DNA of 64,000 nucleotides from Ectopseudomonas mendocina. GTDB taxonomy: Bacteria > Pseudomonadota > Gammaproteobacteria > Pseudomonadales > Pseudomonadaceae. The first letter of the stretch is position 1. The number at the start of each line of letters is the position of its first letter. The notes under the pieces were generated by a model. The model had not been told where the DNA came from. It searched no databases and saw only the letters and a list, made by a program, of their open reading frames with translations. The translations under genes were made by a program, and so were the position numbers. Below are positions 29,847-60,831 of the stretch, one piece after another. The DNA lies in contig NZ_SCFY01000004.1 in NCBI RefSeq assembly GCF_007049795.1, forward strand, positions 186,001 through 250,000, in the 5' to 3' direction.

Positions 29847-29866
29847 GCGCGCACTAAGGTGCGCGC
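29847..29866 (+). terminator. GC-rich hairpin after dxs
   Basis: GCGCGCAC (29847-29854) pairs with GTGCGCGC (29859-29866) around a TAAG loop, 30 nt after the dxs stop. The T-tract is weak (CATTCATGTT), so it is a plausible but imperfect terminator, immediately before the cobalamin riboswitch. Confidence 0.5.
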
Positions 29867-29869
29867 CAT

Positions 29870-30041
29870 TCATGTTCCGCCAGGGTGCGCTGCGCAAGCG
29901 GCGTTAAACGGGAAGTCGGTGTGAATCCGGCGCTGCCCCCGCAACGGTAATCGACTGCAAGTGCTGAGCTTGCGCCACGTCCAACAGCCACTGGGCCATG
30001 CCTGGGAAGGCGGACGCGGGTCGAGAGCCCGGAGACCGGCC
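29870..30041 (+). promoter_or_regulatory. Cobalamin riboswitch upstream of btuB
   Basis: Typical adenosylcobalamin-riboswitch elements occur in order: GGGAAGTCGGTGTGAATCCG (about 29910-29929), GCTGCCCCCGCAACGGTAA (about 29932-29950), and the B12 box GAGCCCGGAGACCGGCC (30025-30041). A long hairpin with arms 30065-30072/30106-30113 and 30079-30085/30096-30102 follows, then the Shine-Dalgarno GAGGAA of btuB. Ligand binding is expected to lower btuB expression. Whether control is at transcription or translation is not clear; the hairpin has no T-tract. Confidence 0.93.
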
Positions 30042-30145
30042 AAGGCGGTGCGACTGGTGTTGCGGAGGGCAGCACGGTCAAGCGCCGCCCTGCCCGCGCT
30101 TGTTTCTGCCCTCCTCGAACGTCTGCCGACCCTTGAGGAAAGATA

Positions 30146-35960: not shown

Positions 35961-36914
35961 TCAGAAATGTTGATAGCCGCCGCGCGGCGGTTCGATTGGC
36001 TGGCCGTGGGCATCCAGCAGTTGCACTCCGGTGCCGTTCAGCACACGGCCGATAACTCGGACTTCAGGCCAGTCACGCTGAATGTCGGCGAGCAGCGCTG
36101 GCGGTAGGGTAAAGGCCAGGCGGTAATCATCGCCACCACCGAGCGCGCAGACCCGCGCCTGCTCTTCACCGGCAAAGGCACGCAGCGGCGCAGACATCGG
36201 CACACGCGCCAGCTCAATGTGCAGGGCGACCTGCGAGGCGTTGGCGATATGCCCGCAGTCAGCGAGCAGGCCGTCGGAAATATCCAGTGCTGCCGTGGCT
36301 CGGCCGCGCAGTGCCTGCCCCAGGGCCAGTTGCGGTTGCGGCGACCAGTAACGAGCCAGCAAAGGCTCGGCGACTTCAGGCGTTGCATCACGCTGAGCCA
36401 ATACCAGCGGCAGGGCGCCAGCGGCGTCACCCAGCTCGCCGCCGACGCACAGCAGATCACCCACCTGCGCACCGCTGCGCAACAGTGCCTGTCCGGCCGG
36501 CACACGGCCGAACACGGTCAGCGTCAGGCTTAGTGGGCCACGCGTGGTGTCACCACCGACCAACGCCAGCGAGCAATTCTCGGCCATCTGTTGCAGGCCA
36601 CGCGCGAACTCGGCCAGCCAGGCTTCACTGGCGCTCGGCAAGGTCAACGCGAGGGTAAAGGCCAGCGGCGTAGCGCCCATGGCAGCCAGGTCACTGGCGG
36701 AGACGGCCAGCGCACGCTGACCGAGAAGAAAGGCATCGCAGGCGTCGGGAAAGTGCACCCCGGCAACCAGCGTATCGGTGGACACCGCCAACTGCTCGCC
36801 CGCTGGCAACGCCAGCAGGGCGCAGTCATCGCCGATACCGCGAACCACGCCGTCACCGCCCTGAGCGCAACGGGCGGCGGCGAAATAGCGACGGATCAGC
36901 TCGAACTCATTCAC
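35961..36914 (-). CDS. thiL: Thiamine-monophosphate kinase
   Basis: This 317-residue kinase makes thiamine diphosphate. It starts VNEFELIRRYF (GTG 36914) and has GIGDDCALL, STDTLVAGVHFP, ASDLAAMGATP, GGDTTRGPLSLTLT, ALDISDGLLADC and GGGDDYRL, all canonical ThiL motifs. An upstream ATG at 36977 would add 21 residues that lie inside a repeated element and are not ThiL-like. No good Shine-Dalgarno sequence precedes the GTG. The 150-nt leader is mostly that element. Confidence 0.94.
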   Translation of the reverse strand: MNEFELIRRYFAAARCAQGGDGVVRGIGDDCALLALPAGEQLAVSTDTLVAGVHFPDACDAFLLGQRALAVSASDLAAMGATPLAFTLALTLPSASEAWLAEFARGLQQMAENCSLALVGGDTTRGPLSLTLTVFGRVPAGQALLRSGAQVGDLLCVGGELGDAAGALPLVLAQRDATPEVAEPLLARYWSPQPQLALGQALRGRATAALDISDGLLADCGHIANASQVALHIELARVPMSAPLRAFAGEEQARVCALGGGDDYRLAFTLPPALLADIQRDWPEVRVIGRVLNGTGVQLLDAHGQPIEPPRGGYQHF

Positions 36915-36923
36915 GGGCAAGCA

Positions 36924-37042
36924 ACGATCTGCTGCGCGTCGGCCTTGCTGCGTTAAAAGCAGACTCGGAATGCTCATGTGCTACAGCACACTGCGCTTCC
37001 TCGACTGCTTTTGCCTTGCATGGCTCTAGCTCGCAAGATCGT
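36924..37042 (-). repeat. Structured repeat element in the thiL leader (relative of the uvrA element)
   Basis: Read on the minus strand, this 119-bp element has short terminal inverted repeats (36924-36930 and 37036-37042). It aligns along its length with the element before uvrA (57852-57995), sharing for example GCAAGGC, GAAGCGCAG, TGAGCATTC and AACGCAGC in the same order. A central hairpin (TGTGCT/AGCACA, 36977-36990) replaces a different hairpin in the uvrA copy. It fills nearly all of the nusB-thiL gap, ending 10 nt before the thiL GTG. Confidence 0.72.
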
Positions 37043-37064: not shown

Positions 37065-37544
37065 TCAACGTTTGTTGGCGTTGACTTCGGCCGCACGCAG
37101 CTTGGGCGCGAGCTTGTCGAGGATGCCGTTGACGAACTTGTGCCCGTCAGTGGCACCGAACACCTTGGCCAGCTCGATACCTTCGTTGATCACTACCTTG
37201 TAGGGCACATCGACGCGGTTCTTCAGCTCGTAGGTGGACAGGCGCAGGATGGCCAGCTCGACCGGATCGATCTCTTCCAGCGGGCGATCGAGCAGCGGCG
37301 TGAAGGCCTCGTCCAGCTCGGTCTTCTGCCGCGGCACGCCGTGCAGAATTTCGTGGAAGTAAGCGCCATCGACCTTGCTGAAATCGTTGTCGACACGAAA
37401 CTGCGCTTCGATCTCGTTCAGCGGCTGCCCGGCAATGTGCCAGGAATACAGCGCCTGCATGGCCAGGGTACGGGCCTCACGGCGTGCGAGAATCTTGCCG
37501 CTGGGCCCCTTCTTGGCCGGCTGGCCGTTACCGGAGTTGCTCAC
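37065..37544 (-). CDS. nusB: Transcription antitermination factor NusB
   Basis: This 159-residue helical protein has [21 protein letters not shown] near the N-terminus and [13 protein letters not shown] and [11 protein letters not shown] with the C-terminal [11 protein letters not shown], all standard NusB motifs. It joins NusE in rRNA antitermination. The start is GTG at 37544, overlapping the ribH stop by 4 nt (GTGA). Confidence 0.96.
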
Positions 37545-40040: not shown

Positions 40041-40130
40041 GGACGAACTCCTGTTTTGGTCAAAAACAGGGCAATGCCGATCGATAGGGATTTCGCGGGC
40101 ACGCACGAGGCGCCCGTGGAGGGAATCCCG

Positions 40131-40277
40131 CTCTCTCTTTATCCGGACTATACCGTCGGCCCCGGAATCGCACCGGGTCTGCTGGACCTCGCCAGGCAGA
40201 AGCCATGGCGAGCGCTCGCGGGCTAGGTTCTGCGAACCATTACCGCCGGTGGGGAATTTCGCCCCGCCCTGAGAACG
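40131..40277 (-). promoter_or_regulatory. FMN riboswitch (RFN element) upstream of riboflavin synthase
   Basis: On the minus strand the conserved RFN blocks appear in order: CAGGGCGGGGCGAAATTCCC (about 40272-40253), CACCGGCGGTAAT, AGCCCGCGAGCG, the GCAGACCCGGTGCGATTCCG segment, and GCCGACGGTATAGTCCGGAT (about 40161-40142), ending AAAGAGAG. It lies between ribD (upstream) and ribE (downstream), so it controls ribE and possibly ribBX-ribH-nusB. The 130 nt after it contain a Shine-Dalgarno-adjacent hairpin rather than a clear terminator, which suggests translational control. Confidence 0.94.
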
Positions 40278-40343
40278 TTGCGGCCATATGAATAACCGCG
40301 TGGTGTTTTATCACATTTATCGCCGCGACGCATGGCCCGTGCG

Positions 40344-57851: not shown

Positions 57852-57995
57852 TAGGGAGCCTGTAAAAGCGTTAGCGAGGCAGCTAGCGCAAGGCGAAAGT
57901 AGGCGAAGAAGCGCAGTTTACGAGCTGTAAATGAGCATTCTGAGCCAGCTTTCAACGCAGCGCTTGCAACGCAGATAGCTTTTAGAGGTTCCCTA
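57852..57995 (+). mobile_element. MITE-like element abutting the uvrA start codon
   Basis: The 144-bp element is bounded by 18-bp terminal inverted repeats: TAGGGAGCCTGTAAAAGC (57852-57869) and the complement of TAGGGAACCTCTAAAAGC (57978-57995), 16 of 18 matching. Both ends start with TA. A central hairpin (TTTAC/GTAAA, 57917-57931) lies in a segment shared with the thiL leader element. It has no ORF. The right end supplies AGAGG (57984-57988) as the uvrA Shine-Dalgarno and stops 1 nt before the uvrA GTG. Confidence 0.68.
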
Positions 57996-57996
57996 A

Positions 57997-60831
<2,835 letters not shown>

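Follow-up and report, generated by a model that had tools for sequence, protein, structure and literature searches.

The window analysed here, meaning the whole 64,000-nucleotide stretch of DNA, carries thiL and nusB on the minus strand and uvrA on the plus strand, with a related element just upstream of thiL and another just upstream of uvrA. Gene identities were taken from NCBIfam, and gene starts from a codon-usage gene caller trained on the 64-kb window. The elements, their parts and the neighbouring genes are listed here, with the arm types defined further below.

36924..37042, minus strand: thiL-side copy, with an ACGATC/GATCGT inverted repeat at its bounds; arm type a, outer ends decayed
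36935..37028, minus strand: conserved folded core of the thiL-side copy (covariance model R1, 104.4 bits, E 1e-32)
36977..36990, minus strand: central hairpin TGTGC..GCACA of the thiL-side copy (sequence and fold)
57854..57993, plus strand: uvrA-side copy, from GGGAGCC to GGTTCCC; arm ends near type c
57852-57853 and 57994-57995: TA flanking the uvrA-side copy on both sides (sequence)
57879..57973, plus strand: conserved folded core of the uvrA-side copy (model R1, 98.2 bits, E 1.3e-30)
35961..36914, minus strand: thiL, thiamine-phosphate kinase (TIGR01379, 311.6 bits; gene caller)
37065..37544, minus strand: nusB, upstream of thiL and in the same direction (TIGR01951, 144.3 bits)
57997..60831, plus strand: uvrA (NF001503, 1598.5 bits; gene caller)

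The original prediction had described the two elements as diverged copies sharing a set of ordered motifs, and our results agreed with this description. Both copies contain GCAAGGC, GAAGCGCAG, TGAGCATTC and AACGCAGC in that order. In the central hairpin, the thiL copy has TGTGC/GCACA where the uvrA copy has TTTAC/GTAAA, so that two pairs are changed on both sides. Their shared orientation and their nearness to a GTG start codon were also found as described, with the copies ending 9 bases before the GTG of thiL (36914) and 3 bases before that of uvrA (57997). A search of the window with R1 gave exactly two places, the thiL-side core on the minus strand and the uvrA-side core on the plus strand, and the R1 and blastn matches assign both elements to one family well beyond chance. 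When the whole window was compared with Rfam (4227 families), only an FMN riboswitch (40126-40280, minus strand) and a cobalamin riboswitch (29866-30058, plus strand) reached the gathering score, and neither copy was matched; three element loci compared with Rfam at E ≤ 5 likewise gave no match on the element.

R1 has 95 positions and 28 pairs and was built from 38 copies in the genome of the window, including the thiL and uvrA copies. These were 38 of the 40 distinct copies found by a regular expression, which missed the copy at L020; the copies at L008 and L024, with rearranged cores, were omitted from the R1 alignments. The genome holds about 70 copies of the family (76 R1 matches at E ≤ 1, 70 at E ≤ 2e-6), and blastn with the thiL copy alone found 42 places. 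Under strict filters, R1 matched 90 of 232 genomes of the class, our own counted, in 77 of 197 genera. When 150 genomes of the phylum were searched with a second model, R2, 55 gave a match, and for 39 of these the phylum is the lowest rank in common with the window. Among named sources, copies were seen in Pseudohongiella and P. rhizoryzae and on plasmids of P. veronii and of a Halomonas. Two genomes were rich in matches, one with 54 and the other, the 2.4-Mb genome G206, with at least 150; the 9 and 13 copies aligned from them represent a shorter form that lacks one helix.

In records of mobile DNA, the thiL copy gave no match among 72,556 plasmid records at 1e-5, another copy of the repeat matched 8 plasmid records at 1e-3, and this same copy matched none of 50,697 phage records. 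Two 31-nt end queries against plasmids gave matches mostly from other organisms. Near-identical copies with similar flanks were present on two rumen/rectum MAG contigs titled Paludibacteraceae (L084, 3747-3843; L087, 1356-1452), which reflect either a binning error or a member of the family outside Proteobacteria. A partial copy (28.3 bits) was seen on a plasmid of the insect symbiont Candidatus Fukatsuia symbiotica, placed in Yersiniaceae by its record (L088, 2002-2082).

To place the copies relative to genes, we used a set of 82 from three genomes of one genus (62 of the 70 copies in our genome, 10 of 38 in G012 and 10 of 12 in G003, with a weak second match at L093 omitted), in which 4 copies had no placement class. 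Among the 78 classified copies, both neighbouring genes ran with the element in 25 cases and against it in 26, and the neighbours were mixed in 15 and 12; no copy lay inside a gene. Orientation relative to genes is thus random, an outcome that the original prediction had itself set beforehand as grounds against its regulatory hint, and so the hint fails. Coupling to the direction of replication was also considered and rejected, with 29 copies running with the fork and 33 against it in three complete genomes (dnaA served as the proxy for the origin, and the length of G003 was rounded to 4.8 Mb).

The two sites were then compared in 18 relatives of the same genus. Inspected by eye, the uvrA site was without a copy in 15 of them; in G250 the element occupies the same position and its middle is altered, and G008 and G001 hold apparent remnants. 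In G012, the nearest relative (L181), the site reads GTTGTAAGTGG, as against GTTGTA-element-TAAGTGG in our genome, which makes it an exact empty site with one TA, in flanks that are 95-97% identical. Since the more distant relative G250 has the element (L179), precise loss or excision in G012 is possible. At the thiL site, 17 relatives were without a copy and G012 keeps both ends around another middle, again by eye. We also saw that the right end of the uvrA copy (57980-57999) supplies an AGAGG before the GTG, at a spacing like that of a Shine-Dalgarno sequence, and that the nearest GAGG at the empty site of G012 is further upstream than in our genome (both by eye).

These results bear on whether the elements act in cis as leader RNAs controlling thiL and uvrA, as the original prediction had hinted. 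Such a role would fit the way in which both copies face their gene and stop at its GTG, and it would fit the one-strand conservation of the fold described below. However, orientation is random over the 78 copies, both sites are empty in most of the 18 relatives, and about 70 copies adjoin unrelated genes, and we regard this explanation as very improbable. Considering the random orientation, the absence from relatives and the target duplications reported below, it is best to regard the common orientation of the two copies, and their position close to GTG, as coincidence. On this view, the elements at thiL and uvrA are insertions rather than regulators dedicated to these leaders.

The element is about 120-150 bp long and contains no transposase gene. 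Forty copies were folded singly, and nearly all formed the same long interrupted hairpin, the rearranged copy at L024 being a deviant. Its outermost parts are the inverted-repeat ends, followed inwards by the arms, by CAAGGC facing AACGC and by a variable helix. Next come an invariant GA/GA loop, a helix in which one A is unpaired, and a GnAG/TGA loop; innermost is the central hairpin, whose closing pair is G-U in 81 of 86 copies. The inverted-repeat ends score at least 7 in 76 of 82 copies. The arms fall into several types, for which letters were assigned here from the printed copies.

Arm type a: GAACCTGTTCAC; the thiL copy is a decayed example
Arm type b: CAGGCYGTTGAAAAA
Arm type c: GGGCACCTCTAAAAA; the uvrA copy is near this type
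Arm type d: GGCTCTGTACGAAAAG
Arm type e: CTGTGTGAAAACG
Arm type f: GAGGGTGTTTACAAG

Types b and c have their inner arms in common and differ in the outer ~15 bp. Four copies (L008, L020, L150 and L179) contain extra segments within the core (..GATGGCGGCCCC.. and CACTGGGCCCGCA.. are examples) that look like insertions of smaller repeats. Two 39-bp palindromes in G000 (C6:127091-127129, L147; C17:16424-16462, L148) consist of a pair of type b ends joined without a core; the core may be dispensable for insertion, or these palindromes may have arisen by later deletion of the core.

We next asked whether the fold is maintained, using 38 copies of which 10 came from our genome and 28 from 27 other genomes. 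In this alignment, 97.1% of 1063 cells pair, and double changes occur in 25 of the 28 pairs. There were 206 double-change cells, compared with a mean of 56 in shuffled alignments, none of 500 of which reached 206, and with 22-37 in slid controls; the shuffles ignore kinship and the slid controls do not. The helices covary across genera, while the unpaired bases are fixed. Among mismatched cells, G-U outnumbered A-C by 74 to 15 in 87 copies, by 27 to 3 in 39 copies of our genome (L020 and L024 omitted), most of which were first found by BLAST, a method that does not favour G-U, and by 31 to 4 in 27 other genomes represented by one copy each; one mostly G-U pair was left out of all these counts. 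The excess was absent from seven named records (5 to 4, with the same pair left out). The original prediction that pairing is kept by compensatory changes therefore stands, with a strong excess of double changes over both controls, and together with the preponderance of G-U over A-C this indicates that the folded nucleic acid is apparently under selection.

Because G-U is far more frequent than A-C, the fold looks constrained, as judged from these substitution patterns, on one strand, that bearing GCAAGGC..AACGCAGC. A constraint on one strand points to RNA or single-stranded DNA rather than to a symmetric cruciform, and we infer that selection acts on the core in the form of folded RNA or single-stranded DNA from that strand. 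It is more likely that this selection concerns the element's own spread or persistence than service to thiL or uvrA, and the core may have a role in transposition, in the control of transposition or in tolerance by the host.

Mutation instead of selection could also keep the pairing, if template switching within the hairpin at replication copied changes from one arm to the other. Such a process would be expected to yield double changes in every helix, the outer arms included, with no need of a function, and the outer arms do change together between types. It leaves two features unexplained, namely that the fixed mismatched loops persist without being corrected to pairs and that G-U exceeds A-C by 74 to 15, which is not expected from a strand-symmetric process. 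We therefore consider template switching an unlikely source of the covariation, and selection on the fold remains our preferred reading.

To look for traces of transposition, we compared the flanks of copies of each arm type, assigned with loose filters, with shuffled flanks. Exact 4-bp target duplications were present in 6 of 19 type b copies (shuffled mean 1.17) and in 5 of 12 type c copies (shuffled mean 0.74), and in neither case did any of 2000 shuffles reach the observed number. For type a, 3-bp duplications were found in 4 of 15 copies, a number reached by 132 of 2000 shuffles, and for type d, TA flanked both sides in 9 of 13 copies, which equals the shuffled mean.

A partner insertion sequence was recognised for type b. 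The same-genus relative G012 contains six elements, each 1331 bp long and terminated by CAGGCCGTTGAAAAA as in type b, and all six have duplicated targets (CTAG in five, CTAA in one). Their 374-aa protein is an IS5-family transposase, and their DNA is 99.9% identical to sequences on four Pseudomonas plasmid records, annotated as ISPst12 family. Type b copies of the repeat thus have the ISPst12 terminal sequence CAGGCYGTTGAAAAA and a 4-bp duplication of the CTAG/CTAA type. In contrast to the repeat, ISPst12 is 1331 bp long and has a transposase gene, and the two show no similarity beyond the ends among the matches listed. Ends that are shared without a shared interior mean that type b elements are ISPst12 ends on another body; descent of the repeat from ISPst12 by internal deletion was rejected on the same lack of similarity past the ends among the matches listed.

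In our own genome, a 58-contig draft that could hide one, no intact partner insertion sequence was found, the best relative being 31% identical. None of the nine PF01609 loci of this genome has type a-d ends, as judged by inspection and by a scan allowing two mismatches; the locus at L046 has CTGTGTAAAAACG, which is loosely like type e. By sequence, a partner was found for type b only, and types a, c, d and e were without one.

The elements are short, lack a transposase gene, have terminal inverted repeats, show target duplications (types b and c) and, in type b, share the ends of ISPst12. The many dispersed copies, none within a gene among the 78, and their random orientation to genes and to replication fit mobility, for which the exact empty uvrA site in G012 is indirect evidence. 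The thiL and uvrA elements are very probably copies of a non-autonomous transposable repeat (MITE) with a conserved folded core, mobilised in trans by IS5-type transposases. To judge from the end sequences, these transposases would act in trans on the element ends, and different end types would be served by different transposases. A single-strand mechanism like that of HUH or REP-like elements, with the folded DNA strand as the moving entity, would account for the one-strand constraint on the fold. Inverted-repeat ends and 4-bp target duplications are, however, features that the repeat shares with a DDE-type insertion sequence, and the bias in replication direction is absent (29 versus 33); we hold this route to be highly doubtful.

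Many copies end on a stop codon. Among 86 stops facing an element, 25 lay at -10..+4 nt of the element end and 10 in the next 15 nt. Insertions of the proposed MITE may often persist at the ends of genes, since its target (CTAG, YTAA, TTA and so on) is frequently a stop codon, which the duplication would restore. The same position could suggest that the host keeps the repeat as a transcription terminator or mRNA stabiliser, given the strong hairpin, the many copies directly past stop codons and the reported effect on mRNA of ERIC insertions at gene 3' ends in Yersinia (PMC10969869). Yet copies occur equally in both directions, although only one strand shows the constraint on the fold, and their presence varies among relatives. 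Retention for such a service to the host appears improbable, and transposition by a MITE with a folded core is the reading that we adopt.

The interiors of MITEs are usually regarded as inert remnants of insertion sequences. The surprise here is a MITE interior that is conserved, folded and not derived from the insertion sequence: conservation lies in the core, which covaries across many genera, has a fold that looks constrained on one strand, and bears no relation to the insertion sequence that shares its ends with type b. If a function of the core were found, it would explain the persistence of such repeats and would provide one testable origin and an annotation model for many unnamed intergenic repeats, perhaps including ERIC. 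For the window itself, a false lead on thiL and uvrA leader regulation is removed.

Among the papers listed in our searches of article texts, none was recognisable as describing this folded core, although several described elements resemble the repeat in part. ISPsy19, with ends GAGGGTGTAGACAAAAT and a 3-nt duplication (PMC3189936), has printed ends that resemble type f. The same source describes MITEPsy1 of Pseudomonas syringae, a 100-nt MITE that is attributed to the IS5-family ISPsy2, transposes in vivo and makes a 4-nt duplication of CTAG or YTAA, and it suggests that similar sequences are widespread (PMC3189936). MITEPsy1 as described there is similar to our repeat in being a short MITE with a link to the IS5 family and a 4-nt CTAG/YTAA duplication; its end GGAAGGTCTGAAAAAGCC, the only part compared here, is none of the types in the printed copies. 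R178 of P. fluorescens is reported as a 101-bp repeat with an 11-bp internal inverted repeat and 18, 28 and 9 copies in three strains, in a study that links the ends of insertion sequences to R0 and R2, not to R178 (PMC2718517). Going by its size, internal inverted repeat and copy numbers, R178 could be the same core.

To our knowledge, what mobilises E. coli ERIC has not been established. ERIC (RU-1) of enterobacteria is described as a 127-bp imperfect palindrome that is intergenic and folds as one long hairpin (PMC2759123, PMC2267715, PMC10969869). It resembles the present repeat in these three respects and in the order of its conserved blocks; in that same description it is without a counterpart of one helix, and its terminal sequences differ, the ends TATACCC..GGGTATA of the printed ERIC consensus not being among the end types of the printed copies. 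Kinship of the two as branches of one superfamily would be compatible with the MITE explanation. It is suggested by the same order of parts (GCAAG, GAG-yTTAC..GTAAr-TGA, AACGCAGC), by a local alignment of the ERIC consensus with our copies whose score none of 300 dinucleotide shuffles reached, and by the existence of forms with one helix fewer. The covariance models were divided when tested on one E. coli ERIC (L051) against a background of 50 kb of K-12 in which blastn finds no ERIC. R2 scored it at 19.2 bits versus 13.0 for the best other place, whereas R1 gave 14.2 bits versus 15.0 for background, and R3, a model from the shorter forms, gave 12.8 bits over part of the model versus 13.3. In addition, nhmmer reported no ERIC match, and R1 with default filters gave none at E ≤ 10. 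On this evidence, we rate kinship with ERIC as a genuine possibility, somewhat short of an even chance. More tentatively still, an ancient folded core, active as RNA or single-stranded DNA from one strand, may have spread across Proteobacteria in end-swapping MITEs that use varied IS5-type transposases, with ERIC as the enterobacterial branch.
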